A stretch of 64,000 nt of DNA from positions 96,497,357 to 96,561,356 of the forward strand of contig OZ020599.1 in the NCBI GenBank assembly GCA_963971535.1, given 5' to 3'. Each line of letters starts with the position of its first letter. Position 1 is the first letter of the stretch. The notes under the pieces were generated by a model. The model saw only the letters and a list, made by a program, of their open reading frames with translations, was not told the DNA's origin and did not search any database. This document shows, in pieces, positions 25,772 to 61,478 of the stretch. The DNA is from Notolepis coatsorum (lineage: Eukaryota; Chordata; Actinopteri; Aulopiformes; Paralepididae). A program made the translations under genes and the position numbers.

Positions 25772-26430
25772 AGAGAGGTATTGTACATGGAACTGACCCA
25801 GACGTGGGTGATGAGTCAAACACATTTGAAGTATATTATCCCTGGTACTAACCCAGAGGTGGGTGTATAATATAGGTGGCTATAAGGTGTTGAGTTACAA
25901 TCTGAATAATAGTAGGAATTCATTCTCGTTGACTATCCCTATTAAATCTTTGTAACTGAACCGTACCAATTAACATAAAACATTGAATGGGGTTCTGTGT
26001 GCGTGTCCCTTCCTGTGCCCAGTCTTAACCATTTTGGTGTGGGTAACGTTACTGCAATTAACCCCTTCCTATTCAACCTTCCCTTTCTTACTGTAAGGTT
26101 TCTAGTGTCACTGAGGGAGGGTACTGCTTGCGGGGGGAACCAAGTTATTTATTTACAATTCAGTCACTAGGTGTGGAAGGGTTAAAGGAGTAATTGGGGG
26201 AAGTGAGAGCGTGTGGGGAGTACTGCTGACCGCCCTGGAAGGGAGAGGAAGACCAGAGTACCAGACCAGGTTGGTAAATCCCGGGCCCCATCCACTCCCA
26301 CTGCCAGCCTCCAGCTGATGCTCCAGACCCAAAGACGGAGGTGCAGTTAGCCAGAGATCTACTGTGTCTCGCTACCCAGTGACTGTGCACACCCGTTCCC
26401 ACGAAGCAGGGATAATCCACCCTGCTACAT
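25772..26430. other. Unit 1 left block, no gene recognised
   Basis: This block is non-coding and matches 46076-46732 with about two substitutions (near 25968 and 26178). It holds 'cccagacgtgggtgatgagt' and 'cccagaggtgggtgtataat' short direct repeats. Confidence 0.6.
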
Positions 26431-27563
26431 AGAGAAGGAGGAGAGAGATGAGTCTGTTTGTATGTATAGAAGGAGGCGAGAGATGAGTCTGTTTGTATGT
26501 AGAGAAGGAGGCGAGAGATGAGTCTGTTTGTATGTAGAGAAGGAGGAGAGAGATGAGTCTGTTTGTATGTAGAGAAGGAGGAGAGATGAGTCTGTTTGTA
26601 TGTAGAGAAGGAGGAGAGAGATGAGTCTGTTTGTATGTATAGAAGGAGGCGAGAGATGAGTCTGTTTGTATGTAGAGAAGGAGGAGAGAGATGAGTCTGT
26701 TTGTATGTAGAGAAGGAGGAGAGATGAGTCTGTTTGTATGTAGAGAGGAGGAGAGAGATGAGTCTGTTTGTATGTAGAGAAGGAGGAGAGATGAGTCTGT
26801 TTGTATGTAGAGAAGGATCAGAGATGAGTCTGTTTGTATGTAGAGAAGGAGGAGAGATGAGTCTGTTTGTATGTAGAGAAGGATCAGAGATGAGTCTGTT
26901 TGTATGTAGAGAAGGAGGAGAGAGATGAGTCTGTTTGTATGTATAGAAGGAGGAGAGAGATGAGTCTGTTTGTATGTAGAGAAGGAGGAGAGAGATGAGT
27001 CTGTTTGTATGTAGAGAAGGAGGAGAGATGAGTCTGTTTGTATGTAGAGAAGGAGGAGAGAGATGAGTCTGTTTGTATGTAGAGAAGGAGGAGAGAGATG
27101 AGTCTGTTTGTATGTAGAGAAGGATCAGAGATGAGTCTGTTTGTATGTAGAGAAGGAGGAGAGATGAGTCTGTTTGTATGTAGAGAAGGATCAGAGAGAT
27201 GAGTCTGTTTGTATGTAGAGAAGGAGGAGAGATGAGTCTGTTTGTATGTAGAGAAGGAGGAGAGATGAGTCTGTTTGTATGTAGAGAAGGATCAGAGATG
27301 AGTCTGTTTGTATGTAGAGAAGGAGGAGAGAGATGAGTCTGTTTGTATGTAGAGAAGGAGGAGAGATGAGTCTGTTTGTATGTAGAGAAGGAGGAGAGAG
27401 ATGAGTCTGTTTGTATGTAGAGAAGGAGGAGAGAGATGAGTCTGTTTGTATGTAGAGAAGGATCAGAGATGAGTCTGTTTGTATGTAGAGAAGGAGGAGA
27501 GATGAGTCTGTTTGTATGTAGAGAAGGATCAGAGATGAGTCTGTTTGTATGTAGAGAAGGAGG
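26431..27563. repeat. 33-35-bp minisatellite, main array of unit 1
   Basis: The consensus is 'gagaaggaggagagagatga' plus 'gtctgtttgtatgta'. About 33 copies are present in three versions: 35 bp (GGAGGAGAGAG), 33 bp (GGAGGAGAG) and 33 bp with GATCAGAG. The versions are interspersed and not blocked, consistent with unequal exchange. A 468-residue minus-strand frame (LHTNRLIS repeats) is an artefact. Confidence 0.95.
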
Positions 27564-28251
27564 CATAGGCGGAGTTTGAACTTGACTGCTTGGCGAACGA
27601 TACCCGATTTTTTTGACCTTTATTTTATTATTTTAGCGTTTTTACAATGCCCTAACCCCTAATTTTTTATTTTATTTAGGTAGTACAGCAGCACACACAC
27701 ACACTCACACACACAGCACTACGGGGGATCATTTTTAACTGACTTGAAAAATGGAGGCTCTAATTATTATTATTCATAGAGACTCTCGAGCAATAATAAT
27801 TATTACAGCCTCCATTTTTCGTGGACGAAAAATATACCAGACTATAGATATCAATTTTCCCGAAATAACGCTACCTGCCTCGACAAAATCCGTGCATTGG
27901 TTATCCAGATACATTAATTATCATCTCAGAATAAGTGGCTTTGTACAAGCGTTACTATCGCGGGGGCATTCTGCTGCTGCTGCTGCGAATGGTGGTGCTT
28001 GGCCGCGCGTTAACCCTTTCACTGCCACACTACAGAAGGTTCGCCTTATAATGTGACATGATTACTACTATAAAATGAATGTATTGTAAAACAAAACATA
28101 ATAGAATTCAGATTTGTTTCTCACAATTATTATAATTTTATTAAAATAAAAATAATCTTGATTTTTTTTTTTTTTTTTTTTTAAAGCAATTTCACCCCCG
28201 GCCACCAGGGGGTGCAATGCACCCCCTGCACCCCCATAAACTCCGCCCATG
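27564..28251. mobile_element. TIR element with 8-bp target duplication inside the minisatellite (unit 1 only)
   Basis: The ends 'cataggcggagttt' and the reverse complement of the right end, 'catgggcggagttt', are inverted copies. The flanks GAAGGAGG at 27556-27563 and 28252-28259 form an 8-bp target duplication, as in hAT or P-type elements. Inside are a hairpin at 27748-27822 ('aaaaatggaggct' against 'agcctccattttt'), one TTAACCCTTTCACTGCCAC unit at 28013 and a T18-type run near 28160. There is no transposase. The array of unit 2 lacks it. Confidence 0.85.
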
Positions 28252-28413
28252 GAAGGAGGAGAGATGAGTCTGTTTGTATGTAGAGAAGGAGGAGAGAGAT
28301 GAGTCTGTTTGTATGTAGAGAAGGAGGAGAGAGATGAGTCTGTTTGTATGTAGAGAAGGATCAGAGATGAGTCTGTTTGTATGTAGAGAAGGAGGAGAGA
28401 GATGAGTCTGTTT
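28252..28413. repeat. 33-35-bp minisatellite, right remnant
   Basis: Five further copies continue the array beyond the inserted element and stop abruptly at 'cagtggcggctgctgacc'. Confidence 0.95.
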
Positions 28414-28965
28414 CAGTGGCGGCTGCTGACCAAATTTCTTGGTGAAGCACAAATTATTATATTATATATTAAATTATATTTTGAAAACATCCCCAAGGCT
28501 GCAACACCCCCATTCCTCCCAGGTGTCAGGCTCCTCATTCGCTTCCATTCATTTTGGGGACCATGTTTAAATATCATACTTCTGAAGTATAAACAAACTA
28601 TACTGCTGTGACGATTTCAATAAAACAGACCATTCTGAGTCAATGGTACATGCTTGTACAACTGTACAAGCAAAACTGTACATTGGAATATGTAACATGT
28701 ATTTACCACCTTCCTCTGCACGAGACTACAGATTTGATTTGATTTGATAGGCTATTGATAGGCTATTGGTAGGGACAACACACGTCAATGAACATCAAGT
28801 ACAGAATACAAAATGTAGACATGCAGGGTTGTAGCAAGAGCTAATTTACACCCGTAGTCCCTAAACAGGAGACATAAAAAACTCTTTCAATAAATAAATA
28901 GCCTGCTTAAGGTAAAAGCATTGTGACAATCAATGATAAAAACAACAATAAAACAAGTTACATTA
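28414..28965. other. hAT-like left terminus and LINE 3' UTR
   Basis: 'cagtggcggctgctgacc' at 28414 resembles a hAT-type terminus. The sequence from about 28730 on is probably the 3' UTR of the minus-strand LINE, with GATTTGATTT repeats at 28733-28748 as tail candidate. Copy in unit 2: 47077-47628. Confidence 0.45.
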
Positions 28966-30228
28966 CTAAATTAGATTAAAAATGATCACAGTTCTGGTTT
29001 GCCTTGAGATGCAGTTTAAGATGGGTCTTGAACATGTGGGGCACTCTCTAATCGCAACTGGTAGGTTATTCCAGTAGTTACCACCTTTAACAGAGAACAC
29101 AGTTTTTGCAAAGGTAGTATACCGAAAAGGCACCTTACAGTCCCCTCTACTGATGGCCCTGGTGGTAATGCCAGTGTCTCCTTTTTGTTGGATGAACTCA
29201 TTCAATGGGGGAGGGGCAAGTCCATGCAGAACCTTGTACATGAAGCAAGTATATTTAAAAACTTGGAAATTTGCAAAACTTAGCATGTTGTGTTTTTCTA
29301 AGATATTACAGTGATGAAATGAATTTGGTTTCCTATCAAATACTTTTATGGCTTTTTTGTAGAGTAATTTTATTGGTGTAAGAGTAGTGACATATGAAAG
29401 AGACCAGTTAATAAAACAGTACTCAATGTGTGATAGAATCATTGAATGCATAAACATCCTTGCAGCATTAACTGGTAGGCAGGGCCTGATCTGCCTGAAG
29501 TTTTCGATGTTAAACTTGACTGTGTTTGTTACTTTCTTTACGTGACTTTTGAAGGTCAATGTAGAGTCCAATGTGACCCCAAGATACATGAACTCCTTTA
29601 CAATGTCCAGCAGCTCCGCCTCTCCCAGAAACACATTAGAGTGAGTGACCTCTACTGGTGAATTTGTGAACATCATACACACTGTTTTCTTGGTGTTAAG
29701 TGAAAGACATGATTTTGTTAGCCAGTTTTGAACATGGGTCATTGCAGATGTCAGAGTTGCAGAGGCATCTTGTATTGATTTTGCAGATGTAAAGATTACA
29801 CAGTCGTCAGCATACATTTGGACATTGGTGTTATGGCATGCATCGGGTAGGTCATTGATAAATAATGAGAACAGTATTGGCCCAAGACTTGAACCCTGTG
29901 GAAGGCCTGTATAACAGTCAAGGTAGGGAGATTTGACACCATCAACACAAACACATTGCTTTCTACTGGATATATATGATTTCATCCACAATAGAGCTCT
30001 TTCAGATAAATTAAAATGTCTAAGTTTGGACAATAGAACCTGGTGGTTGACAGTATCAAATGCCCACTTCAGATCAATGAAGACGGCACCAACACAGTAA
30101 TGTGTGTCCAGTGGGTATTTCACTTTTTCTAAGAACATACAGTTAGCTGATTCTGTTGAGTGATGGGTGCGGAACCCGAATTGCATGGGGTGCAATAGGG
30201 TACAGCTTTTATTTAGATGTTCATTCAA
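28966..30228 (-). pseudogene. Non-LTR retrotransposon reverse transcriptase, C-terminal part (unit 1)
   Basis: The 420-residue frame contains QFGFRTHHST, FIDLKWAFDTVNH (50-62), GLPQGSSLGPILFSLFIND (108-126), the catalytic MYADD (138-142), LNTKKTVCMMF, EFMYLGVTLD, LSHIEYCFINW, and a C-terminal GNYWNNLPVAIRE region. This is a CR1/L2/Rex-type LINE with all catalytic aspartates present in this part. A hAT-like element at 30245-30759 separates it from its N-terminal motifs, so no functional protein is made. The frame is intact to the end, which suggests a fairly young copy. It is identical at protein level to 47629-48891. Confidence 0.85.
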
Positions 30229-30244
30229 TAGCTTTACTACCCAC

Positions 30245-30759
30245 TAGGGCTGACCCCTATTAATCGATTAGTCGACTAATCGGTCGAAAGGGGCCGTAGT
30301 CGACTGGCCAACCTCTTAGTCGAATATAATTAATTTTTTTTTTTTTTTTTTTTATAATTTTTTTCAAAAGAAAAGAGGCATAGAAGCGTGGCTAACGCTA
30401 ATGGCACGCATACCAGAGGCTACGAAAACTGCCTACGAAAACAGGCACAGAGGCACTGAAAGAGGATTTCACCCATCTAATGAACACACTATACTAGACA
30501 AATATCAAGATGTATCCATCAGTGGACCAATTGCATGCTTTTTCAGAGGACAAGAAGCCTTCAGTCGACTCCTTCAGACATTAAGCACCCCCCACAGCCC
30601 AAATGGAATGATAAACAAATAAATAAATAAAAATAAAAAAATAAAAAATATTATACTTTTTTTTCTTTTCTTTTTTTTTAAGTCGACCAATAGTCGACTA
30701 ACGGCAAATTTTGGCCAATCCTAGTCGACCATCCAAATCCTTAGTCGGGGACAGCCCTA
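30245..30759. mobile_element. hAT-like non-autonomous element (unit 1)
   Basis: Left end TAGGGCTGACCCC and right end GGGGACAGCCCTA are inverted; subterminal 'agtcgac' motifs occur near both ends. CTACCCAC at 30237-30244 and 30760-30767 is an exact 8-bp target duplication, the hAT signature. The LINE codons AEKWVV continue across it once the element and one CTACCCAC are set aside. It carries a 73-codon frame at 30401-30622 (begins MARIPEATKTAY) with no known domain; it might be cargo or chance. Copy: 48908-49422. Confidence 0.9.
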
Positions 30760-30767
30760 CTACCCAC

Positions 30768-31228
30768 TTCTCAGCTACTTTAAATATGACCGGGAGAATA
30801 CTGATTGGCCGGTAGTTAGCAATGTAATTTTTTTGTCCAGATTGAAAGATTGGGGCAACCGTGGCCACCTTCAATGCTGAAGGAACAGTTGATTCCCTGA
30901 AGGACAGATTGACCAGATGTGTGATTGGGGGGACCAAAGATTCTATATGTGTTTTCAAGAAATTGGTATCAAGCCCATAGGCGTCCTTAGCTATAATATT
31001 GGTTACCTCCAGCTCTGTTATTTCCTCTAAATTAAAAATAGGTTGTGCATGATTAATAGTGCTATGGATGGCATCAGATGGGGTAAACACTGTGTTATCT
31101 CCTGGACAGAATCCAAAAAGAAACAGTTGAATTGGGTGGCTAGAGTTAGTGGGGTTTTCACTAATTCATTATAAATTTTGAGTTCTAATTTTTTGTTGTT
31201 ATGTTTGTTTTGTCTACCAATTAGTTTA
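30768..31228 (-). pseudogene. N-terminal reverse transcriptase part of the split LINE (unit 1)
   Basis: The minus strand encodes LEEITELEVTNIIAK, DAYGLDTNFLK, PPITHLVNLSF, VATVAPIFQSG and YRPISILPVIFKVAEKWVV. These are reverse transcriptase motifs 0-2, which precede 28966-30228 in the same LINE. The part upstream of 31090 continues with degraded frame to 31228, where a piggyBac-like element begins. Endonuclease and ORF1 are absent. Confidence 0.8.
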
Positions 31229-32167
31229 CACTTTCAGTGCCACTCACGAGATTTCTCGTTTTTTTTTATAGGTGGTTGCATGCCACTCACGAGATTTCTC
31301 GGAATTATTATTATTATTATTTTTTTTGCGATCTGAAAAATTATTGCATCACCCGAGCCTACCCGAGTATAGCCGAGGGGCGCCAGCGATCACTGTGGAA
31401 AAAAGCGCCCCCTGTCGTCTCCCAGATGACATAAGTGATTTTGGAATGGACTCAATGAAAATGAATGGGGGAAAAAAACCGGTACTCCACATTTTCCAGT
31501 TCACTGATCCAGCCGGGGTTACTAGAGTTCATTCTGGAGCCTCAGATCCCCGCGGATCATGGAGTTCTACTGTATCGCGTTGGATCCATACACGTATCGA
31601 TTTTTCCGAATGGAGATCAGGAATTGGAATATACCAGTTGGATACCATCTGATGTCAGGTAAGGACTCTATGTTATCAGTGGTAGGATAATCAGAGTAAG
31701 TTTGATGAAGTTATAAGCTGTTTTGTGAAATGTCTTCTTTCGGTTTCACTGTAAAAGTCCGTGAGGAAATCAACGGAGCGATTATCAGTGCGCGGCCGTA
31801 ATGTGCGTGCGTGCACGTATAATATTGATCATCTAGCGTTTATTTTAAAACGATTCATAAAAAGGCCGACGAATATCAACTTTGTGGAATATTCCACTAA
31901 AAGACGATTTTCATAGAATGCTCCAGAATGAGCTGTTTTTTATATCAAAACGGGGGCTTTTCTAACTGCTCTGAAACGGCAACGACGCGATAAAAAAACA
32001 ATCTGCCTTCACAGCACTGACTGGAAAATAGTCTTTGATAATGCGATGGGCAGATTAGACACATAGCCATAATTGAAAACATAGATTAGGCGATATTAAC
32101 GTTAACATTGGCGCCGATGGTGGCATTCAAGCGGTAAAACGGAAAACCAGGCGTGGCGCTGAAAGTG
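31229..32167. mobile_element. piggyBac-like non-autonomous element (unit 1)
   Basis: The left end CACTTTCAGTGCCACTCA and the reverse complement of the right end, CACTTTCAGCGCCACGCC, are inverted. The flanks TTTA at 31225-31228 and 32168-32171 form a 4-bp duplication one base off the TTAA used by piggyBac. The left part holds a 20-bp direct repeat (GCCACTCACGAGATTTCTCG, about 31240 and 31284) around a T9 run. No transposase frame of length. Copy: 49892-50830. Confidence 0.65.
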
Positions 32168-32799
32168 TTTATGTTGCCAAATAAGCATTAAACAAAATGG
32201 CCCAGTCATCTATTCACCTTTGTTTAATACACACAGCGTTGTCTCTAATGTTATCTAACTACTGATAGCTCGCGATATCATCAGTTTTGGTGCTGGCTAA
32301 GTAGCGTGAGCTAACGTTAGCTTCTAGCCACAATGCTATATTGTTATAATGGCATACTCCATTGACGTTAGCATGCAGCTAACAATGCTACCGATCTTTT
32401 TTTAGACTAAACTATCCGCTCTTGGTGGTCTTGTGTTGATGTTAGTTTTGTTTCATCAACAAATGACAGGCAGAACACACAGTGAATGTATCCGTTTTGT
32501 TTATTGCACTTTTATTAGGCTTTGCTGAAAAAGAATTGCTGCATTGGGTAACTAGGCAAAAGATGGTGGCTGCCTTGTTGACATTTGCTTTGCAGGCACA
32601 TTCAAGTTCTGATTGGTTGAAATTGCCTTCATGTTTGCCACCTACTGCCACCTACTGCTTTGGCAGTGTACTACATCAGTGTGCTCGGGTGACAAAAACG
32701 GAAAAAAAACGAAAGTGTGACTCGAGGCGCACGACGTCGCGGCGATACGCATATGACGACGATACGAAATGATACGAAAGGTGTAACCGACGGGAGTAT
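32168..32799. other. No gene recognised (unit 1)
   Basis: AT-rich sequence with 'gctaacgttagctt' type motifs near 32310 and 32365. From 32690 the sequence becomes GC-rich ('cgaggcgcacgacgtcgcgg'). Nothing coding. Copy: 50831-51462. Confidence 0.45.
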
Positions 32800-33795
32800 C
32801 GGGGGGGGGGAGGCCATGGTTTCGGCGGATCGACCCGGGAGACGGGGGCCTTGTGTGTTGCGGGGTCGGTGGTGGGGTCTTGTGTGTTATGGGGTCGATG
32901 TGCGGGGGGTGGGGTTATTTGTGACATGGGAGGTAACAGGCTTGGCTGGGTGGGGGGGAGCCCCCTGCACTCTCCTCTACTGGGCCTGGCCCAATCAATT
33001 CAAGGGACCCATGTCGCAGGTGCCCGGCTCCGTGTATAGCGGTCCTGGGATATGGGGGAGCCCTATTATTGGTCCTGGGATATGGGGGTGTTCTGATTCT
33101 CGGGGAGGATGGCAGGAAGGAGGGGTTCCTATTAAGGTGGTCAGAGCGGCTGAGCTTTGCCCAGGGGGGTCTTGTGTGTTGTGGGGTCGGTGTGCGTGGG
33201 GTGGGGTTCTTTGTGACATGGGAGGTAGCGTGCTTGGCTCGGTGGGGGGGAGTCCCCTGTCCTCTCCTCTACGGAGCCTGACCCAATCAATTCAAGGAGC
33301 CCATGTCGCTGAGGGCTCAGCTCCGCGCGTAACGGACCTGGGATATAGGGGAGTCCCAAACGGGCTTAGCTCAGTGGGGGGGAATGTCGGGGGGGGGGGG
33401 CATCGTTTCGGCGGTTCGGCCCGGGAGAGTGGGGTCTTGTGTGTTGTGGGGTCGATGTGCTGGGGGTGGGGTTCTTTGGGACATGGGAGGTAACAGGCTT
33501 GGCTCGGTGGGGGGGGGGAGTCCCCTGCCCTCTCCTCTACTGGGCCTGGCCCAATCAATTCAAGGGACCCGTGTCGCTGGTGCCCGGCTCCGTGTATAGC
33601 GGTCCTGGGATATGGGGGAGTTCTATTTCTCTGGGTGGATGGCGGGAGAGGGGGGTCCCTCTTATGTGGGTCTGGGCTGCTGAACACAGCCTTAGCATAG
33701 GGATTCAAGGGACCCATGTCATTGTACTGTTATATGTTTGATGTCGTTTAAAGTGTTGTCTAAGTGTTGTATGTCTATAAGTGTCAATAAAAATG
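32800..33795 (+). repeat. G-rich tandem repeat (three units of about 240 bp) ending in AATAAA
   Basis: Three imperfect units contain 'gtcttgtgtgttgtggggtc', 'gacatgggaggtaacaggct', 'cctctcctctactgggcctg', 'cccaatcaattcaagggacc' and 'ggtcctgggatatgggggag'. G runs of 7-11 recur. It ends with 'gtgtcaataaaaatgtaagt' and A-rich DNA, which suggests the 3' end of a LINE-like transcript; the class is inference. Gly-rich frames of 258-293 codons are by-products. Unit 2 copy 51463-52457 differs by one G in a homopolymer and one C-to-T near 33410. Confidence 0.7.
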
Positions 33796-34123
33796 TAAGT
33801 AAAAAAATAAAATAAAATTAGGTTGCCTCTAAATATAAGAATGTATTAAATAAGAATGGTTTGCTTCACTTAAAAAATTATAAATAATAAATTTAATAAA
33901 GAAACGTTTCCTTTCTGTTGTTGTTTTTCTTTGCTCATAGAATTTGGTGTTTGCTATATTTTAGTTTCTGGTATATATTTGTTTTCAACATGCTACATTA
34001 TCAAGTCCTTACTCTGGAGGTCAAAGTTGACTGGCATTCCCAAGCTCACCTCTATGATGTCACTTCCTGCCCTCATGGTATATAGCTCCCATTTTTACAA
34101 GCTATCACTGCTAGCCTATTACA
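33796..34123. other. No gene recognised (unit 1)
   Basis: AT-rich spacer leading into the element with the hammerhead-like motif at 34124; copy at 52458-52785. Confidence 0.4.
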
Positions 34124-34148
34124 CTGAAGAAGGAACACGTTCCGAAAC
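34124..34148 (+). other. Hammerhead-like core motif (unit 1)
   Basis: The sequence has CTGAAGA, then a GGAAC/GTTCC stem pair, then GAAAC. CUGANGA...GAAA is the conserved hammerhead ribozyme core found in retrotransposon termini such as Penelope-like elements. An extra A between core and stem, and unresolved stems I and III, argue for caution. Downstream 'gagagtgctggtccggcc' with 'ttcgcctttttcttc' looks like a repeat family tail. Copy: 52786-52810. Confidence 0.3.
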
Positions 34149-34374
34149 ATGTCTGTATTATAGGCTGCCATTAAATAAAAAAAATTTAAATCTGAGAGTG
34201 CTGGTCCGGCCTTCGCCTTTTTCTTCATAATGTTTGGGATTTCAGCACCCAGTGTTAGATACTGAGAGCGCGGTCTATACTTGACTTCGACTCAGACATG
34301 AAAATGGAATGTGGAGACTGGCACGACTATTTGAAAATTCGAACTCATCCCTAGTTCAGAGACAAAAAAGACGT

Positions 34375-34735
34375 TGCAGAAGATCCAGACATTCATTAAC
34401 AGCGGTCTGAGGCGCATCTTCAGAATCAGGTGGCCGGATAAAATAAGGAGCTGTGGCAGAGAGGGAGCCAGGACCCAGTAGAGAGCCAGATCCAGAGACG
34501 GAGGTGGGGATGGATTGGCCACACCTTGTGTAAACCAGCAGCTACCATCACACGCCAGGCCCTGACGTGGAACCCCCAGGGGAAGCGGAAGAGAGGAAGG
34601 CCCAAAAAACAGCTGGAGGCGGGACACCGAGGCAGAGCTGAAGAGACGTGGTAGCAGCTGGGGAGAGGCGGAGAAGACCCATAGCCATGCTGGATGGAGA
34701 AGAGTCGTTGATGGCCTATGCTCCGCTTGGAGAAC
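34375..34735 (+). pseudogene. RTE-like LINE C-terminal fragment (unit 1)
   Basis: Translated in pieces, the plus strand gives [48 protein letters not shown] and, after a stop, WPMLRLENKNK. The order IGHTLRK...TRQAL.WNPQGKRRRGRP is the C-terminal signature of a widespread RTE-like LINE group. Several stops and a frameshift make it non-functional. Copy: 53037-53397. Confidence 0.7.
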
Positions 34736-35309
34736 AAGAACAAGATGTTGAAGAAGGAAAAAGCAAAAACAGTTGATGTAACTTTTTTATTTTGTTGATT
34801 TGTTTCCCCGACACTGTTACTACAGTAACCCATCGACATTATAGTAGCCTGAATAATCCCCTTAGAAACACAGCAGTGCAGACAGTCGCAGCAGAGTAGA
34901 CCCCACAAACAAGCCTGCCAACTAAATATCTGAATATAATCAGTGCAAAATTACCAAATATCATATGATTAGTTACATAATGTTAGTTAGCTTTAGTTAT
35001 ATAGCTAACTATGTAATAACCACTCATAGCTTACTAGCAGCTTTGCACAAGTGAATTGATGGCCTGTTGGCCTCTACCTAATTCTCAAGTGAACACAAAA
35101 AAAAACGTGGGAGAAACAAAACCTAAACACACTACTGGTAAAACATAAAGAGACTAAAACACTATGGGAAGAAATACTAACCAAACACTCTAAAGAAGGA
35201 TGGGCACACAAAAAGCAAGCTACAAACACCAAAATAAATATACAGAAACTAGGGAGTAAACAAGGACTCACAAGTAACAGGGAGACACATAGAGACAGGA
35301 GAACGAGGG
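34736..35309. other. No gene recognised (unit 1)
   Basis: AT-rich spacer containing 'agttagctttagttatatag' with 'ctaactat', a weak inverted repeat near 34984-35010. Copy: 53398-53971. Confidence 0.4.
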
Positions 35310-35385
35310 AACATTTGTTTTTGTTTTCAGCGACTTTGGGTCTTTGAAAAGCGCTATACAAAATAAATTATTATTAACATATAGA
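35310..35385 (+). mobile_element. LINE 3' tail with (ATT)n (unit 1)
   Basis: 'cagcgactttgggtctttga' and 'aaagcgctatacaaaataaa' followed by (TTA)n is a well-known teleost LINE 3' end. Only about 75 bp remain. Copy: 53972-54047. Confidence 0.65.
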
Positions 35386-35389
35386 ACTC

Positions 35390-35772
35390 AGGAAATAAAA
35401 GATTACTGGAGGAAACAAATACAGGGGAACACAAAATAACTCCACAAACACACAGAGGGCTTTAATATAAGAGGAAAACAATTAAGGAACGAGGAATAGC
35501 GAGACAACAGTATGCAAACTCAGACTAGGGACAGCAGGTGCAGACAAAATCCACAAGAGGAAGCCATAGAAGGAAATACACAAGACAACACCAGAGGGGG
35601 CTAAGGAGCCAGGGAGGGCTAAGGAGCCAGGGAGGACTTGGAACCAGGGAGGGCTAAGGAGCCAGGGAGGACTTGGAACCAGGGAGGGCTAAGGAGCCAG
35701 GGAGGACTTGGAACCAGGAAGGAGGGAACCCGACAGGAACTAGGGACGCAGATAGAGAACTAAGGCTGGGAG
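35390..35772 (-). mobile_element. LTR-like repeat with 'agccagggaggactt' tandem units (unit 1)
   Basis: It is the reverse complement match of 20561-20827 and 21496-21742. The internal unit 'ggagccagggaggacttgga' with 'accagggagggctaa' occurs about three and a half times (35615-35720). The copy at 54052-54434 is identical in the unit count. Confidence 0.65.
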
Positions 35773-36076
35773 CAGTGGCGGCCGCTGGCGCTGGTGCCTT
35801 GTGGGTCGCAGTTCACGTTAATAGGTCGAGTTGAAAATGTAATGCTCTGAGATGCTCTGGAGCAATCTCTCTCTGTCTCTCGGATCAATCAAATCAAATA
35901 ATTAACACATGTATGTTGTCATTTTAAACAACTCACCATTCATTCATTATGCATCAGCAGCAGCTAAATGAATGTTATAGTTCAGCGTTTTGAATCGCTA
36001 GCCTATTAATTATCGTCTCAGCAAGCACAGTCAATACTTTTTTCCGTAGCCGCATTTCGCGGAGACAGCTGTGTAT

Positions 36077-36141
<65 letters not shown>

Positions 36142-37052: not shown

Positions 37053-37514
37053 ATCAAGAGTCCCATTATCCAGATTCAATTAACCCGATGTTTGAAGCCG
37101 GGATTTTCCTGTTCCTCGAAGGTGGATTCAGTCTCGTTAACTCGAACCAGACTTGAGACCCAGGATAATTGCGCGCGCCCGCCTCAGCTGAAAAGCCAGC
37201 AAGTATCGATAGCAGAAATCCTGATTTTCTAACGGCATTGATTGATTAATTGATTTAAAACTTTATTAACAGATTGCAGTACGGCTCAATAGCCTCGCCG
37301 ACAAGTTAAATGCATAATCTATAGGCAAATTTTAAGTCCCTCATTACCCCAATCAATCAGATTATATTTCTTTAAACTTGCCTGCTGGCAGTAGGTTTAT
37401 GGAATGGATAATCAAATGAGATCTTGCTAGCGAAAATAATTAGTTCAACTGTTTCAGAATAAGGATACGGCTCTCTTACCCATTGATTGATGTATGGTGG
37501 ATGTTTTACTTATC
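37053..37514. other. No gene recognised; LINE family A 3' remnant at 37240-37293
   Basis: 'tgattgattaattgatttaa' with 'aactttattaacagattgca' and 'gtacggctcaatagcctcgc' is a 50-bp minus-strand family A end. The rest is spacer. Copy: 58572-59033. Confidence 0.55.
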
Positions 37515-37580: not shown

Positions 37581-37693
37581 CTTCTAGTCTTTTTCTTCTT
37601 TTTGCAATGTAGGAATAATTAAATTTGGTGCACGTTGAGAGCTATATAAAGAATGACATCCTCAATGCATGTAGATTTATAATATTTTAACTT

Positions 37694-49422: not shown

Positions 49423-49430
49423 CTACCCAC

Positions 49431-50830: not shown

Positions 50831-51462
50831 TTTATGTTGCCAAATAAGCATTAAACAAAATGGCCCAGTCATCTATTCACCTTTGTTTAATACACACAGC
50901 GTTGTCTCTAATGTTATCTAACTACTGATAGCTCGCGATATCATCAGTTTTGGTGCTGGCTAAGTAGCGTGAGCTAACGTTAGCTTCTAGCCACAATGCT
51001 ATATTGTTATAATGGCATACTCCATTGACGTTAGCATGCAGCTAACAATGCTACCGATCTTTTTTTAGACTAAACTATCCGCTCTTGGTGGTCTTGTGTT
51101 GATGTTAGTTTTGTTTCATCAACAAATGACAGGCAGAACACACAGTGAATGTATCCGTTTTGTTTATTGCACTTTTATTAGGCTTTGCTGAAAAAGAATT
51201 GCTGCATTGGGTAACTAGGCAAAAGATGGTGGCTGCCTTGTTGACATTTGCTTTGCAGGCACATTCAAGTTCTGATTGGTTGAAATTGCCTTCATGTTTG
51301 CCACCTACTGCCACCTACTGCTTTGGCAGTGTACTACATCAGTGTGCTCGGGTGACAAAAACGGAAAAAAAACGAAAGTGTGACTCGAGGCGCACGACGT
51401 CGCGGCGATACGCATATGACGACGATACGAAATGATACGAAAGGTGTAACCGACGGGAGTAT
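50831..51462. other. No gene recognised (unit 2)
   Basis: Copy of 32168-32799; non-coding. Confidence 0.45.
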
Positions 51463-52457
51463 CGGGGGGGGGGAGGCCATGGTTTCGGCGGATCGACCCG
51501 GGAGACGGGGGCCTTGTGTGTTGCGGGGTCGGTGGTGGGGTCTTGTGTGTTATGGGGTCGATGTGCGGGGGGTGGGGTTATTTGTGACATGGGAGGTAAC
51601 AGGCTTGGCTGGGTGGGGGGGAGCCCCCTGCACTCTCCTCTACTGGGCCTGGCCCAATCAATTCAAGGGACCCATGTCGCAGGTGCCCGGCTCCGTGTAT
51701 AGCGGTCCTGGGATATGGGGGAGCCCTATTATTGGTCCTGGGATATGGGGGTGTTCTGATTCTCGGGGAGGATGGCAGGAAGGAGGGGTTCCTATTAAGG
51801 TGGTCAGAGCGGCTGAGCTTTGCCCAGGGGGGTCTTGTGTGTTGTGGGGTCGGTGTGCGTGGGGTGGGGTTCTTTGTGACATGGGAGGTAGCGTGCTTGG
51901 CTCGGTGGGGGGGAGTCCCCTGTCCTCTCCTCTACGGAGCCTGACCCAATCAATTCAAGGAGCCCATGTCGCTGAGGGCTCAGCTCCGCGCGTAACGGAC
52001 CTGGGATATAGGGGAGTCCCAAACGGGCTTAGCTCAGTGGGGGGGAATGTCGGGGGGGGGGGCATCGTTTTGGCGGTTCGGCCCGGGAGAGTGGGGTCTT
52101 GTGTGTTGTGGGGTCGATGTGCTGGGGGTGGGGTTCTTTGGGACATGGGAGGTAACAGGCTTGGCTCGGTGGGGGGGGGGAGTCCCCTGCCCTCTCCTCT
52201 ACTGGGCCTGGCCCAATCAATTCAAGGGACCCGTGTCGCTGGTGCCCGGCTCCGTGTATAGCGGTCCTGGGATATGGGGGAGTTCTATTTCTCTGGGTGG
52301 ATGGCGGGAGAGGGGGGTCCCTCTTATGTGGGTCTGGGCTGCTGAACACAGCCTTAGCATAGGGATTCAAGGGACCCATGTCATTGTACTGTTATATGTT
52401 TGATGTCGTTTAAAGTGTTGTCTAAGTGTTGTATGTCTATAAGTGTCAATAAAAATG
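51463..52457 (+). repeat. G-rich tandem repeat (unit 2)
   Basis: Copy of 32800-33795. One G fewer in the run near 52055 and T for C near 52071 change the open frames between units, which confirms they are not maintained as genes. Confidence 0.7.
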
Positions 52458-52785
52458 TAAGTAAAAAAATAAAATAAAATTAGGTTGCCTCTAAATATAA
52501 GAATGTATTAAATAAGAATGGTTTGCTTCACTTAAAAAATTATAAATAATAAATTTAATAAAGAAACGTTTCCTTTCTGTTGTTGTTTTTCTTTGCTCAT
52601 AGAATTTGGTGTTTGCTATATTTTAGTTTCTGGTATATATTTGTTTTCAACATGCTACATTATCAAGTCCTTACTCTGGAGGTCAAAGTTGACTGGCATT
52701 CCCAAGCTCACCTCTATGATGTCACTTCCTGCCCTCATGGTATATAGCTCCCATTTTTACAAGCTATCACTGCTAGCCTATTACA

Positions 52786-52810
52786 CTGAAGAAGGAACAC
52801 GTTCCGAAAC
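52786..52810 (+). other. Hammerhead-like core motif (unit 2)
   Basis: Copy of 34124-34148, identical. Confidence 0.3.
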
Positions 52811-53036
52811 ATGTCTGTATTATAGGCTGCCATTAAATAAAAAAAATTTAAATCTGAGAGTGCTGGTCCGGCCTTCGCCTTTTTCTTCATAATGTTTGGG
52901 ATTTCAGCACCCAGTGTTAGATACTGAGAGCGCGGTCTATACTTGACTTCGACTCAGACATGAAAATGGAATGTGGAGACTGGCACGACTATTTGAAAAT
53001 TCGAACTCATCCCTAGTTCAGAGACAAAAAAGACGT

Positions 53037-53397
53037 TGCAGAAGATCCAGACATTCATTAACAGCGGTCTGAGGCGCATCTTCAGAATCAGGTGGCCGGA
53101 TAAAATAAGGAGCTGTGGCAGAGAGGGAGCCAGGACCCAGTAGAGAGCCAGATCCAGAGACGGAGGTGGGGATGGATTGGCCACACCTTGTGTAAACCAG
53201 CAGCTACCATCACACGCCAGGCCCTGACGTGGAACCCCCAGGGGAAGCGGAAGAGAGGAAGGCCCAAAAAACAGCTGGAGGCGGGACACCGAGGCAGAGC
53301 TGAAGAGACGTGGTAGCAGCTGGGGAGAGGCGGAGAAGACCCATAGCCATGCTGGATGGAGAAGAGTCGTTGATGGCCTATGCTCCGCTTGGAGAAC
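53037..53397 (+). pseudogene. RTE-like LINE C-terminal fragment (unit 2)
   Basis: Copy of 34375-34735 with the same stops. Confidence 0.7.
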
Positions 53398-54434
53398 AAG
53401 AACAAGATGTTGAAGAAGGAAAAAGCAAAAACAGTTGATGTAACTTTTTTATTTTGTTGATTTGTTTCCCCGACACTGTTACTACAGTAACCCATCGACA
53501 TTATAGTAGCCTGAATAATCCCCTTAGAAACACAGCAGTGCAGACAGTCGCAGCAGAGTAGACCCCACAAACAAGCCTGCCAACTAAATATCTGAATATA
53601 ATCAGTGCAAAATTACCAAATATCATATGATTAGTTACATAATGTTAGTTAGCTTTAGTTATATAGCTAACTATGTAATAACCACTCATAGCTTACTAGC
53701 AGCTTTGCACAAGTGAATTGATGGCCTGTTGGCCTCTACCTAATTCTCAAGTGAACACAAAAAAAAACGTGGGAGAAACAAAACCTAAACACACTACTGG
53801 TAAAACATAAAGAGACTAAAACACTATGGGAAGAAATACTAACCAAACACTCTAAAGAAGGATGGGCACACAAAAAGCAAGCTACAAACACCAAAATAAA
53901 TATACAGAAACTAGGGAGTAAACAAGGACTCACAAGTAACAGGGAGACACATAGAGACAGGAGAACGAGGGAACATTTGTTTTTGTTTTCAGCGACTTTG
54001 GGTCTTTGAAAAGCGCTATACAAAATAAATTATTATTAACATATAGAACTCAGGAAATAAAAGATTACTGGAGGAAACAAATACAGGGGAACACAAAATA
54101 ACTCCACAAACACACAGAGGGCTTTAATATAAGAGGAAAACAATTAAGGAACGAGGAATAGCGAGACAACAGTATGCAAACTCAGACTAGGGACAGCAGG
54201 TGCAGACAAAATCCACAAGAGGAAGCCATAGAAGGAAATACACAAGACAACACCAGAGGGGGCTAAGGAGCCAGGGAGGGCTAAGGAGCCAGGGAGGACT
54301 TGGAACCAGGGAGGGCTAAGGAGCCAGGGAGGACTTGGAACCAGGGAGGGCTAAGGAGCCAGGGAGGACTTGGAACCAGGAAGGAGGGAACCCGACAGGA
54401 ACTAGGGACGCAGATAGAGAACTAAGGCTGGGAG
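53398..54434. other. Spacer, LINE 3' tail (53972-54047) and LTR-like repeat (54052-54434), unit 2
   Basis: Colinear and apparently identical copy of 34736-35772, including the number of 'ggagccagggaggactt' units. Confidence 0.6.
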
Positions 54435-54738
54435 CAGTGGCGGCCGCTGGCGCTGGTGCCTTGTGGGTCGCAGTTCACGTTAATAGGTCGAGTTGAAAAT
54501 GTAATGCTCTGAGATGCTCTGGAGCAATCTCTCTCTGTCTCTCGGATCAATCAAATCAAATAATTAACACATGTATGTTGTCATTTTAAACAACTCACCA
54601 TTCATTCATTATGCATCAGCAGCAGCTAAATGAATGTTATAGTTCAGCGTTTTGAATCGCTAGCCTATTAATTATCGTCTCAGCAAGCACAGTCAATACT
54701 TTTTTCCGTAGCCGCATTTCGCGGAGACAGCTGTGTAT

Positions 54739-54774
<36 letters not shown>

Positions 54775-55029
54775 TTATGGTTTGTAACCGACCCCAATCG
54801 CACAACACAAGACAGGTATGATGGTTTGCCAAGAAACAGATATTTATTGAACAACAGGGAAATACAGGGAAAAGGGCACTGTCCCTTTAAGGGAGAATCA
54901 CAAATACATGAATATAGTATGAGGGGAAGGAAGGGTGCCTTTAAGAGGCGGGCAGGAAAAGGGAACACTATGGGAAAGTTAGGGAACGCCTAAGGGAAGG
55001 TTAAGGGAACGCCTTGGGACAGAGGAACT

Positions 55030-55345
55030 AGAGACTAGGTAAACCAGGGACAAGGAGAACTAGGGAGAGAGGACTAGGAACTAGGAGAGCTAGGGAACAG
55101 GAGAAACGGGGACAAGGGGAACTAGGGACAAGGAACTAGGTGGAACTAGAAGGGGAGAACTTGGGACCAGGAACTAGGTGGAACTAGAAAGGGGAGAACA
55201 AGGGAACAGGAACTAGGTGGAACTAGAAGGGGAGAACTTGGGACCAGGAACTAGGTGGAACTAGAAAGGGGAGAACTAGGGAACAGGAACTAGGAGGAAC
55301 TAGAAAGGGGAGAACTAGGGAACAGAGGGGACTGAGGCCCGCGGA
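55030..55345. repeat. Tandem repeat block 1 of the LTR-like insertion
   Basis: Units of roughly 50-60 bp carry 'ggaactaggtggaactagaa' and 'ggggagaacttgggaccag' or 'gggaacagg'. About six imperfect copies. Confidence 0.85.
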
Positions 55346-55554
55346 GGCGGGCTGGGAAACAGGGAGGAACTGGGAGGACTGGTGGAAATCATCTGGGCCG
55401 CTCTGCAGGACAGAGGAGAGAGTTAATGCACAAAAGGAAAAAACAGAGCAGGTGCAGAACAGTCCAAATAACAAAGTGAACAAAGTAATAATATCTTCGT
55501 GTGACAAACACACAGGGGGAGATGTAAAGTCCAAAAATACTATTCTAAGTGAGA

Positions 55555-55700
55555 ACCAAAAACAGAGGCATTACGCTGGGAGATGAAATGTCCAAACTAA
55601 CTAACAGAGGCAATACGCTGGGAGATGAAATGTCCAAACTAACTAACAGAGGCAATACGCTGGGAGATGAAATGTCCAAACTAACTAACAGAGGCAATAC
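55555..55700. repeat. Tandem repeat block 2 of the LTR-like insertion
   Basis: Unit of about 43 bp: 'cagaggcaatacgctgggag' 'atgaaatgtccaaactaact'. Three and a half copies. Confidence 0.9.
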
Positions 55701-56215
55701 GCTGGGAGAGTGACATCACAATCAAAACTCACCCAGGCGTATGCGTAAAGGTACAGGAACAGCAGCGGGAACGGGGGCAAGGACACTACGCTGGGTGAGT
55801 GACATCACAATCAAAACTCACCCAGGCGTGTGCGTAATGGTACGGGGACAGCAACGGGAACGGGGGCAAGGACACTACGCTGGGTGAGTGACATCACAAT
55901 CAAAACTCACCCAGGCGTGTGCGTAATGGTACGGGGACAGCAACGGGAACGGGGGCAAGGACACTACGCTGAGTGAGTGACATCACAATCAAACTCACCC
56001 AGCGTATGCGTAAAGGTACAGGGACAGCAACGGGAACGGGGGCAAGGGCACTACGCTGAGTGAGTGACATCACAATCAAAACTCACCCAGCGTATGCGTA
56101 AAGGTACAGGGACAGCAACGGGAACGGGGGCAAGGGCACTACGCTGAGTGAGTGACATCACAATCAAAACTCACCCAGCGTATGCGTAAAGGTACAGGGA
56201 CAGCAACGGGGCGAG
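55700..56215. repeat. Tandem repeat block 3 of the LTR-like insertion
   Basis: Unit of about 85-88 bp containing 'gagtgacatcacaatcaaaa', 'ctcacccaggcgtatgcgta' and 'cagcaacgggaacgggggca'. Six copies in two variants (cccaggcgtgtgcg and cccagcgtatgcg). Each unit contains a TGACATCA site, close to the TGACGTCA CRE/AP-1 core. Confidence 0.9.
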
Positions 56216-56249
56216 GGCATCGCCACCGGTTGGCTGGCTGTCCGAGCCG

Positions 56250-56690
56250 AGGGACAGAGTGCTGGAACAGTGGCGGTGACGAGGGAGTCGTCCACCGGGT
56301 AGCCGCTGTCGGAGCCGAGGAACAGGGTGCTGGAACAGCGGCGGTGGTGAGGATGTCGTCCACCGGGTAGCCGCTGTCGGAGCCGAGGAACAGAGTGCGC
56401 GCCACACCTTGGTGTGCGCGTCGGAACAGGGAGCTGGAAACAGTGGCGGTGGCGAGGATGTCGTCCACCGGGTAGCCACTGTCGGAGCGAGGAACAGAGT
56501 GCGCGCCACACCTTGGTGTGCGCGTCGGAACAGTGGCGGTGGCGAGAGCGTCGTCCACCGGGTAGCCGCTGTCGGAGCCGAGGAACAGAGTGCGCGCCAC
56601 ACCTTGGTGTGCGCGTCGGGACAGTGGCGGTGGCGAGAGCGTCGTCCACCGGGTAGCCGCTGTCGGAACCGAGAGACGCCTCGGGGTGCG
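56250..56690. repeat. Tandem repeat block 4 of the LTR-like insertion
   Basis: Units of about 70-110 bp contain 'gtcgtccaccgggtagccgc', 'tgtcggagccgaggaacaga' and 'gtgcgcgccacaccttggtg'. Five to six copies with internal length changes. Frames of 150-200 codons on the minus strand (GSDSGYPVDD repeats) shift between units, so no constrained protein is indicated. Confidence 0.85.
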
Positions 56691-56699
56691 TCTGCGAGG

Positions 56700-57118
56700 A
56701 GGAGTGTGCCAAGCTCGAAGGTCTGGAAGATGCGCGTCAGTGCGCTGGTACGGAGGAGCGTGCCAAGCTCGAAGGTCTGGAAGATGCGCATCTGTGCGCT
56801 GGAACGGAGGAGCGTGCCAAGCTCGAGGGTCCGGGAGATGCGCGTCAGTGCGCTGGAACGGAGGAGCGTGCCAAGCTCGAGGGTCCGGGAGATGCGCGTC
56901 AGTGCGCTGGAACGGAGGAGCGTGCCAAGCTCGAGGGTCCGGGAGATGCGCGTCAGTGCGCTGGAACGGAGGAGCGTGCCAAGCTCGAGGGTCCGGGAGA
57001 TGCGCGTCAGTGCGCTGGAACGGAGGAGCGTGCCAAGCTCGAGGGTCCGGGAGATGCGCGTCAGTGCGCTGGAACGGAGGAGCGTGCCAAGCTCGAGGGT
57101 CCGGGAGATGCGCGTTGG
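56700..57118. repeat. Tandem repeat block 5 of the LTR-like insertion
   Basis: 54-bp unit, about eight copies: 'cggaggagcgtgccaagctc', 'gagggtccgggagatgcgcg', 'tcagtgcgctggaa'. Because 54 is divisible by three, the plus strand gives a repeated 18-residue frame (RRSVPSSRVREMRVSALE). A coding role is not excluded but nothing else supports it. Confidence 0.9.
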
Positions 57119-57614
57119 TCTAGATGTGCGTCAGGACAAACAGCTGCGCTGGGGTCTGCAGTGGAACGCTGAGGTGCCTCCCGTGGAAGTTACAGGGAGC
57201 GCAGAACAGTCTCCTCCACAGGCTACGGCGACAGCAGACGAAGGCTGGAGCAAACATCTCAAGGCTGGAGAGGTCCATCTTACAGCATTGGTAGACCAGA
57301 GGATCTCCCGAAAAGAGTCTAGATGTTAGGAATATGACTCGGCATGAATACAACACGACCCCACGCCAAAACGAGGGGAAGCGCCCTGGTATTTAAAGCC
57401 CACAGGGGGACTAATTAGCCTGCCACCACAGGTGCGAGAGATAATAGAATATCAAACAGGTGTGGCCACTAAGGGTAAGGAACGAGAGGGTGGGGGCTAG
57501 AGAGAGTGAGTAGGGAATTCCTAACAGTAGGCTTAAAGAAGACAGAGAATAGGGAATTCCTAACAGTAGGCTTAAAGAAGACAGAGAAAAGGTAGTGAGC
57601 AGCGGGCAAAACCT

Positions 57615-57618
<4 letters not shown>

Positions 57619-57652
<34 letters not shown>

Positions 57653-58571
57653 GAGAGACTCACTGTTTAGTTGAAACGTCCAGGGCAGGAGAGCTTGATA
57701 AACGTGTATAATCCACTGTTGATGTATTCCAGACCACTGTCCACTGTCTCCAGACTGCATCCGCCATATAGCTTGTTAGCCAAGTGTTAGCTTGTTAGCA
57801 CAACACAAGTACATTTCTTTGTCCATTTTTCCGCGTCGAACAGACTGCAAACTACCTGGCGTTCTATCGCCATGCTCTAAGACAAACTCTAACCTTAACC
57901 AACTTTGAAAGAGTGCCTAAGCTTAACCGTCTAAAGAACTTGCAGTCACGGCACGCTCTGCTGCCTGCATCTCACAACAACACAACAACACAACTATCTC
58001 TCACCAACGGACCAACCTAGGAAGCTAGAATTGGAACATTAGAAATTGGATTCGGCCAATCAGAGATCGTCTCTGTGAAATTCTGCTACGGAAAAAAATA
58101 CTGGCGTCGGCCAATCAGAGAGTGTCTCCGCGAAATGCGGCTACAGAAATTCTTGACGCTACTGGCTAGACCGCTTCAAATCGCGCCCGGATTCCAACAT
58201 AATAGTCATATTTCAACGCACAACGCGTTATGCACTGATTGGCTGTGACGGATACAGCGATCAAACTGTGACGCGCACTCAGAGCGCTATCGCGTCTAGC
58301 CCGGGCCGAGAAATACGAAAAAATTTAAAAAATTAAAAAACGTCACTTCCTGCTCAGGAAAACGAGTGTTTTTTTATTTTAGATAATAACGTTATATTGT
58401 GCATTGGAAATACAAACATACTTAAAATGAGTAAATATTATTCATTTTAAACATGTTTATATTATTTATAGGGCTATAAAACAAAAAACAAAAAAGTTTT
58501 ATTTTCTTCTTCTCTGATTAAACAGCAGGTGGGTCGGCGCCCTTGCGCCCCTAGTGGCAGAGCCGCCACTG
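57619..58571. other. Unit 2 continuation after the LTR-like insertion, no gene recognised
   Basis: (GA)n to 57658 then the copy of 36140-37052, ending in the hAT-like right terminus at 58571. At least four substitutions and several A/T-tract changes distinguish it from unit 1. The outer arm of the 24-bp inverted repeat is at 58123-58146; its partner is at 54706-54729, so the insertion has separated them. Confidence 0.5.
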
Positions 58572-59212
58572 ATCAAGAGTCCCATTATCCAGATTCAATT
58601 AACCCGATGTTTGAAGCCGGGATTTTCCTGTTCCTCGAAGGTGGATTCAGTCTCGTTAACTCGAACCAGACTTGAGACCCAGGATAATTGTGCGCGCCCG
58701 CCTCAGCTGAAAAGCCAGCAAGTATCGATAGCAGAAATCCTGATTTTCTAACGGCATTGATTGATTAATTGATTTAAAACTTTATTAACAGATTGCAGTA
58801 CGGCTCAATAGCCTCGCCGACAAGTTAAATGCATAATCTATAGGCAAATTTTAAGTCCCTCATTACCCCAATCAATCAGATTATATTTCTTTAAACTTGC
58901 CTGCTGGCAGTAGGTTTATGGAATGGATAATCAAATGAGATCTTGCTAGCGAAAATAATTAGTTCAACTGTTTCAGAATAAGGATACGGCTCTCTTACCC
59001 ATTGATTGATGTATGGTGGATGTTTTACTTATCTGCACTGTGGTGTGACAGTTGGTCATTTTGACTTTCACGCAGACGACCCGTGTTCGAATCCCACTTC
59101 TTCTAGTCTTTTTCTTCTTTTTGCAATGTAGGAATAATTAAATTTGGTGCACGTTGAGAGCTATATAAAGAATGACATCCTCAATGCATGTAGATTTATA
59201 ATATTTTAACAT
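58572..59212. other. Unit 2 spacer with LINE family A remnant and plus-strand tRNA-like head (59034-59099)
   Basis: Copy of 37053-37693 with three substitutions noted, one in the A-box region of the tRNA-like head. Confidence 0.5.
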
Positions 59213-59281
59213 AAAACTAGGCTACTTTTGCGTATAATCATTAATAATATTAATGATTATACGCAAAAGTAGCCTAGTTTT
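59213..59281. repeat. Perfect 69-bp palindrome (unit 2)
   Basis: Same 34-bp arms and single-base centre as 37694-37762. Both flanks carry nearby substitutions between units, but the palindrome is identical in both. Confidence 0.95.
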
Positions 59282-59317
59282 ACAATACAATACTGTATTC
59301 CAAAAAAATTATATTGG

Positions 59318-59391
59318 AAACGCGGGGTCTCGAACTCGGGTCGCCCGCTTGCCAGGAGCGAACACTGGCCGTTGCACCACTGTGCCAGACG
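59318..59391 (-). mobile_element. tRNA-like SINE head, minus strand (unit 2)
   Basis: Copy of 37799-37872; differs by one base (gagcgaacac against gagcgcacac). Confidence 0.6.
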
Positions 59392-61478
59392 GGATATATC
59401 CATTGTGTATCCATCAATGGACAAGAGACCCGTGTTTCGAATATTTTTCTTTTGAATGAAGTTTTATCTCTTTATTCTCAAATGCATTAATGTGACGTCA
59501 ACGGCTCATTCAATTTCTCAAATCCGTCAAACAGCGCATCTCATCAGACATTTTAATCTCAGTTACAATATCACAATAACGTGTGAGTGATGATACAATT
59601 CAACAATCCTCAGAGTCCTCGTAATTCATAATCCACAAAAACCACAATCCACGCATAGACACTTCAATTTTATGCTTGAATGAAACACAATCCGGGCGCT
59701 CCGTTAAGCAAATATACAGCGGAGAATAATATGAAACTAATCAGAGCCAAACGGCCGATAGGTTTCATTCATTAAAAATATCCCTGCGTGATTCACATTT
59801 GCAATGCGTCGTTATTAAAATAACCACATGCAGCGTGTATCGCACTCCGAGCGCCGTATATGACGTGCATTATTTTATTTAGGACAAAGTAAATCTATAG
59901 GCTGAATATGATTTATTATCAGCATTTAGTTCTATTATTATACATTTCAAAAGCCCCCTCTAGGAAAACGAAGCACAGAAACATAATTCAGAATGGTATA
60001 ATGCAGATCTAGACTGTGAGAATCATTTCAGGAAGCGAGCTGGCATTTCTTTGCGGGGGCGTGGCCATGGTTCATCCAGCTAACTGAACTTAACCCTGCT
60101 CTCGACCAGGCTCAAACTTTTTGATCTGTTGTCATGGTGATTTAGACAATCGAGCGTCGGGGAACAGAAAGGTCCGGCTTAAGTCAGGCTATGCTGGAAA
60201 TTATCCGGCTAACTCAGTTAGCCAGGTAGGGGGAACGGGGCCCAGGCGGGTCAATTCAGAACAAATTCTTATTTCATGACGGCCTGGCTAGAGAAGACAA
60301 AAATACCTCTCGAAGGGTAACAGGGAAACAGGGCAGATGATACATATACATCAAAGAGGTACGGGAAATAATTCTAACACACATCAAATAAACAACCAAA
60401 TAAAATGACACGGTATGTAATACATGAAGCAGAACAGACCCATTACAGTTAAAGGCTGAGTGACAGTTGGTGTCTGTAAACAAGTAACTATTCTGCTTCA
60501 TGTGGTTGGCTATTAAAGTCTTTTCATTCTCTTCTCAAAACTCACCCCTTGTGAAAAATCGCTTTTTCATAGTCATTTTATTTAGTTTTTTAGTATTTTT
60601 TGTAATTGTTTCTGCTCATATTGCTCTCTTCCCCTCTGCTCTTATTTTATGGTGTTATTTGTTTAGTGCTTTTTATTTTATTCTCTCACAATGTTTTTTT
60701 GTGTGTCGTTTTAATTCCATTCTGTGTAGTACTTTGTTTGAACCCTGTTTCAAAAAGTGTATTATTATTATTTTATACATATTATTTCCCCCCAGACATT
60801 GCTAACATATAGATAGGCCTGTTACTGCCCTATAATCATTATATTATATTATAATAGTATACTGCAGCAAGTGCATTTTAAAGTTCATGTCTGTTTGTTT
60901 GTTTGTTTGTTGTCTGCTGTTGTGTCTTGTATTGGGAACTCAATCAGTAAATTATCTCTCATTTCATTTCAATTTGTGTTGTTTGAATGTCTGTGTTGGT
61001 TGGGCTGCTATTGGTTGGATGTGGACCACTGGACTGGATTATAATGGCAGAGATATAAATGATGTACGGACTGTATCTGCATATCTACTTATTTTCTAAA
61101 TGTGTATTGTTATTCATTTGTTAATAACACATGTACCTTGTATGCCTTTTTTGTTTGATTTCCTAAAAGAGGCAACAAATAAGGGGGTCAAAACTTTTAT
61201 ATATCCTTCTTACCTGTAGCAATAGAATCAATAGAATACATATTTGAAAGCAATACAGAATGCCTGAGAGCCTTACTGCAGTATATTCAATTTGTGTCAG
61301 TGGGTACCTGAATATTGCCCTTGCTTCTATATGGGACAGTCCCATCAGAGGTTGAATAGGTTCATTGGTGGTCTCATTTCGTGGTTAACTCTGGGCCTGC
61401 TGCATGTACACAGTTTCACCTCTAGGGGGAGTGCCGAGTTGTTATTAAAAAGAGGCAGAGTATGTGTGAGCGACGGCG
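59392..61478. other. Right part of unit 2, no gene recognised; LINE empty site at 60355/60356
   Basis: The stretch corresponds to 37873-38836 joined directly to 44937-46075. It keeps the uninterrupted target of the unit 1 LINE insertion. Microsatellite lengths (ATT, TTTG) are shorter than in unit 1. Confidence 0.55.

Follow-up and report, generated by a model that had tools for sequence, protein, structure and literature searches.

Does this region of the Notolepis coatsorum assembly hold a tandem duplication that is real, or did assembly set both haplotypes of one locus one after the other? The question arises from the window, a stretch of 64,000 nt (C44:96497357-96561356) in a genome of 3.42 Gb in 4,787 contigs, for which an earlier note had claimed the presence of the same segment twice, head to tail. 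A BLAST comparison of the window against itself and a direct reading of the edges revealed two collinear and adjacent copies in the same strand, that is, a direct tandem duplication, so that the claim was borne out to the base:

25772..46075, strand +: unit 1, the left copy, 20,304 bp (self-BLAST and edge comparison)
46076..61478, strand +: unit 2, the right copy, 15,403 bp (self-BLAST and edge comparison)
46075..46076: junction where the units meet, free of N and with 0 bp of homology to either outside flank

Self-BLAST found four collinear direct blocks, far above chance expectation, which paired 25772-26769 with 46076-47076 (99.0% identity), 28252-36110 with 46913-54772 (99.95% over 7,861 columns), 36099-38836 with 57618-60355 (99.27%) and 44932-46075 with 60350-61478 (98.25%). 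Both units begin with AGAGAGGTATTG and end with GAGCGACGGCG, exactly where the earlier note had placed their edges, and the outside flanks, correctly described there as not shared, diverge immediately and have 0 bases in common with the sequence at the junction on either side. Likewise, the size of 15–20 kb that had been proposed agrees with the measured 20.3 and 15.4 kb, and the clean, gapless junction at 46075/46076 is confirmed, with no N at this point or elsewhere in the window. The overlap of at most a few bases that had been allowed for at the junction is compatible with our results, although its actual value is zero.

The left breakpoint, at 25772, cuts a dispersed repeat of around 1.7 kb, of which unit 2 retains the last ~658 bp (46076-46733):

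24716..26430, strand +: dispersed repeat of ~1,715 bp, whole at unit 1; four of six other copies span 24716 to 26429/26431

These six copies are loci outside the window (L003 to L008), from among the matches listed and leaving out the rows wholly inside the minisatellite. Loci L003, L004 and L008 align from 24716 to ~26430 in one piece and L006 does so in two pieces, while L005 and L007 are partial; the right end of the repeat is at 26429-26431 in all six. Since the repeat is whole at unit 1 and is cut at 46076 in unit 2, the left end of unit 2 is the derived one. The right edge of the unit is low-copy DNA: a 501-base probe spanning it matched in full only at its own position and, over the 350 bases that are shared, at the end of unit 1, and the other 38 of its best 40 places matched only a short repeat of ~120–180 bp.

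Sequence variation between the units was examined by blocks, and the substitution counts left out the minisatellite tract, the GA tract and the insertions specific to either unit:

28414..36079, strand +: core block B; differs from 47077-54741 by 1 substitution (7,665 bases aligned)
36140..38836, strand +: block C; differs from 57659-60355 by 17 substitutions (2,696 bases aligned)
44932..46075, strand +: low-copy block D at the right end; differs from 60350-61478 by 3 substitutions (1,128 bases aligned) and by indels in microsatellites

Additionally, a piecewise alignment of block A, at the left end, contained 2 substitutions in 658 aligned bases, and the short indels between units were few and mostly in microsatellites and homopolymers. 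Variation was clearly higher in blocks A, C and D taken together (22 of 4,482 bases, 0.49%) than in block B (1 of 7,665, 0.013%), with a Fisher P of 4.3e-9, or of 7.5e-8 when three substitutions of one poly-A stretch were not considered. The identity of block B starts, on the left, in or near the minisatellite and ends, on the right, between the GA tract and position 36708, which is the first substitution of block C. Using six other genomic copies to polarise the differences in block A, the letter at 25967 is derived in unit 2 and that at 26177 is derived in unit 1, and therefore both units have changed. Going by the sequence, the divergence outside the core and the insertions are of allelic scale and look like the differences between alleles. 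This patchy divergence points either to haplotype-divergent copies with one near-identical stretch or to an older duplication that was partly gene-converted. The real duplication considered in the earlier note was a recent one, which suits the nearly identical core but neither the other blocks, which are ~0.5% apart, nor the four insertions.

The difference in size between the units results mostly from insertions of mobile elements. Together with the minisatellite arrays, these are:

26430..27563, strand +: 35-bp minisatellite, unit 1, 33.3 copies (TRF)
27564..28251, strand +: MITE-like DNA transposon, unit 1 only, 688 bp, with inverted ends of ~14 bp and flanked by GAAGGAGG
28254-28413: 35-bp minisatellite, unit 1, beyond the MITE, 4.6 copies (TRF)
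46734-47076: 35-bp minisatellite, unit 2, 9.9 copies (TRF)
38837..44931, strand +: 5′-truncated LINE, unit 1 only; reverse transcriptase present, tail of (ATCA)n
40435..44238, strand +: LTR element nested in the unit-1 LINE, with LTRs at 40435-41341 and 43330-44238
54773..57618, strand +: insertion in the GA tract, unit 2 only, 2.85 kb, with TG...CA ends and rich in minisatellites

The MITE-like element sits within the 35-bp minisatellite of unit 1, and we take it to be hAT-like solely through its 8-bp flanking repeat; this 8-mer also occurs in the minisatellite array and is therefore weak evidence. Its best-scored 40 places in the genome, itself included, all reach the right end of the element, 21 of them spanning the 688 bases and 19 beginning at base 20–44. 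As for the LINE, its empty site is found in unit 2 near 60350-60355. The LTRs of the element nested in it differ by one gap and no substitutions in an alignment of 909 columns, and the best 40 genomic places for this LTR comprise 28 in 14 pairs 2.6–3.9 kb apart, counting its own pair, and 12 single ones.

Ends of the type TG...CA mark LTRs. With a 700-base piece of the insertion specific to unit 2, 31 of the best 40 places formed 14 pairs and one triple, with members 3.55–4.07 kb apart, and the remaining nine were single, among them 54773-57618 itself. Because its relatives are mostly paired elsewhere and here it is single, the insertion is probably a solo LTR. This LTR consists largely of minisatellites with periods of 39, 42, 89, 68, 91 and 54 bp, among others, and its family includes one locus, at C1:172.88 Mb, with three copies at a spacing of ~3.9 kb, as if arranged LTR-interior-LTR-interior-LTR.

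The order of some of these events can be read from their nesting. In unit 1, the LINE inserted earlier than the LTR element that it contains, and in unit 2, if the insertion is indeed a solo LTR, its arrival was followed by the loss of one LTR plus the interior. So many steps of insertion and loss are a poor fit to the age given by block B alone. Gene conversion or crossing over would thus have homogenised block B, unless the block is identical by descent in two haplotypes.

Copy number in the whole assembly was estimated with three probes from shared blocks, namely the 501-base one across the right edge and one each from blocks D and B. The block-D probe (781 bases) had two full-length matches, both in the window, and the other 38 of its best 40 scored places were partial matches of 75–91% identity. 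Likewise, the block-B probe (801 bases) had two full matches, both in the window, with the other 38 of the best 40 places covering only its first 470–500 bases, which are a dispersed repeat (97–99%). Among the best-scoring candidates for these three probes in the 3.42-Gb assembly we found no third copy and no separate haplotig of the stretches probed. A further probe, from block C, is almost entirely dispersed repeat and found 38 further places, of the best 40, at 98–99%.

We also searched 264 kb around the window for tandem duplications and runs of N. The junction between the units is enclosed in a stretch of 107 kb free of N (from -5580 to +101919 relative to the window), and is thus no scaffold join with a retained gap. 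The neighbourhood contains two runs of exactly 200 N only 35 kb apart, and the assembly is therefore fragmented nearby. One of them (window -41175 to -40976) lies 67 kb to the left of the left breakpoint and has on either side the same 562 bp, at 100% identity (C44, window-relative -41738..-41177 and -40975..-40414). This pair is very probably an overlap between contig ends that was left unmerged, and hence a duplication that the assembly created falsely. At the other three N runs, a search within 20 kb revealed no pair reaching 300 bp and 95% identity across the run. In a published assembly for which YaHS was used for scaffolding, 939 gaps add up to 187.8 kb, or 200 bases each (PMC13173280), and 200 N are therefore a plausible mark of a scaffold gap.

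Other features were seen in this neighbourhood. There are runs of exactly 2,500 N (C44, +101920..104419) and 5,000 N (+126920..131919), whose starts are 25,000 bases apart and which are possibly something other than assembly gaps. Shortly beyond the first of these, a unit of 1.53 kb occurs twice in tandem at 99.3% identity (C44, +104865..106399 and +106395..107939), and the letters of its minisatellite resemble, in the opposite strand, those of the LTR specific to unit 2. A direct pair on the other side (C44, -66989..-65976 and -57464..-56444; 1,021 columns, 98.8%, 9.5 kb apart) could be a pair of LTRs.

We lean, with a confidence just beyond the even, towards a real direct tandem duplication, joined without homology, of a transposon-dense stretch, and we infer that the animal itself carries the junction; how it was joined and why block B is so nearly identical are proposed on the same footing. 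The right end of the segment (46075) would have been joined, with no homology, to position 25772 at its left end, which falls inside the dispersed repeat, much as happens in non-homologous end joining or template-switching repair. The units are not identical, newly made copies: either two different haplotypes would have been joined in cis by unequal exchange between homologues, or the duplication would be old enough to have received the insertions, with ~8 kb (block B) being homogenised later by gene conversion. Counting for a real duplication are the lack of a third copy with the three probes and the contrast between block B and blocks A, C and D (P 4.3e-9); counting against it are the differences between the units, which are what two haplotypes would show, the fragmented assembly nearby, with 35 kb between two 200-N gaps, and the published gapless false duplications and low share of blunt joins described below.

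The strongest competitor, which we judge plausible and clearly less probable, is an artefact of the assembly, with the units being the two haplotypes of one locus set in series within a contig, the insertions being presence/absence polymorphisms and block B a nearly homozygous stretch. The pattern seen, with 0.49% divergence outside block B, one block that is nearly identical and insertions carried by each unit, is typical of alleles, and unmerged contig-end sequence is very probably present in the same assembly. The failure of the three probes to reveal another contig with a single unit is also as expected if both alleles were used here. Additionally, heterotype false duplications make up 0.3–2.2% of the three VGP assemblies examined in PMC9516828. 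Conversely, the junction has neither a gap nor a common base, hence no overlap accounts for the join, and it falls within the 107-kb stretch free of N. The homology of 0 bp, together with alignments of the breakpoints that are no better than shuffled sequences, reveals neither an overlap of contig ends nor a pair of homologous repeats. Also, the nearby pair that is very probably an artefact is marked by a 200-N gap and the junction of the units has none, which leans the evidence to a real junction.

Published cases bear on both readings. False duplications without a gap do exist. According to PMC9516828, false duplications are most often separated by gaps and are sometimes joined by sequence unsupported by reads, such joins arising when gaps are filled incorrectly or from errors of other kinds; PMC9668749 lists gapless chimeras among within-contig errors. 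Of 30,449 human deletions without long homology, 9.2% were blunt and 83.1% had 1–15 bp of microhomology, as stated in PMC12350158. These are figures for deletions, not duplications, and from them a blunt join would be uncommon but not rare among real variants. The earlier note had opposed a real duplication to haplotypes in series: both readings stand, with the genome-wide evidence leaning to a real junction. It had also argued that insertions resembling presence/absence polymorphisms fit either reading, which holds.

A more tentative proposal, which we rate as possible but doubtful, is that end joining between homologous chromosomes brought two diverged haplotypes of one locus together in cis. 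The joining of two haplotypes in cis would neatly explain a near-identical core amid divergence of allelic scale. If this were true, one chromosome would carry both alleles head to tail, each with its own transposon insertions, and the tandem duplication would have been divergent from birth instead of diverging later.

Unequal crossing over between homologous repeats flanking the segment is very improbable: repeats are dense and the left breakpoint lies within a dispersed one, but the junction has 0 bp of homology, sequence around the two breakpoints aligns no better than in 500 shuffles and, within 200 bp of them, no word longer than 8 bases is shared in either orientation. We rejected this explanation, as the edges lack a pair of homologous repeats. 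That the units are copies in tandem of a single large mobile element, with the unit edges as its ends, is hardly conceivable, since the 38 dispersed matches that mostly start at or beside 46076 owe this start to a query that began inside unit 1, the dispersed copies continue leftward (four of six to 24716) and place the unit edge inside the repeat, none of the places scored reveals a long dispersed repeat running across the right end, and the block B and block D probes have only two full-length matches; 46076 as an element end is thus refuted by the copy numbers and by the copies passing the left edge.

We recognised no host genes in the window among bacterial-style open frames, ten of which were picked, a listing from which intron-bearing genes could escape; the listing of open frames and ARAGORN both used the bacterial code. 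In these ten frames, Pfam (E 0.01) detected RVT_1 in three, one of which matched ALKBH8_N as well, with no other match, and nothing was found in Rfam and tRNA scans of the window. The frame with both domains, a LINE open frame at 5091-6344 (-), has the RVT_1 match followed by that to ALKBH8_N, a pairing often present in annotated LINE proteins of fish. A TTC/GAA triplet tract at 19036-19363 has 109 copies (98%).

With its head-to-tail copies, clean junction and blocks of 98–100% identity, the locus is like a direct tandem (segmental) duplication formed without homology, and, if real, it is probably another example of this well-known kind, an ordinary tandem duplication. It differs from usual non-homologous joins in having 0 bp at the junction, as opposed to the commoner 1–15 bp in human deletions without long homology (in the extract of PMC12350158), and from a plain tandem duplication in that the units are structurally quite divergent and share one nearly identical stretch; such a mixture of a nearly identical 8-kb core with divergence of allelic scale around it is mildly unusual. 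The allele-like differences between two copies on one scaffold recall the heterotype false duplications of PMC9516828, although here no assembly gap separates the copies. The same paper mentions a real allele-specific tandem duplication inside one contig, which our locus resembles in having both copies in one stretch free of N.

Because no gene was recognised in either unit, the duplication has little importance on its own. It is, nevertheless, a compact example of allele-like differences and a near-identical core in one tandem pair, in which the identity between copies (differences of 0.013% in the core vs. 0.49% elsewhere) does not date the duplication uniformly. If the junction is real, the locus would be a clean one in which to examine whether tandem duplications can arise between homologues.
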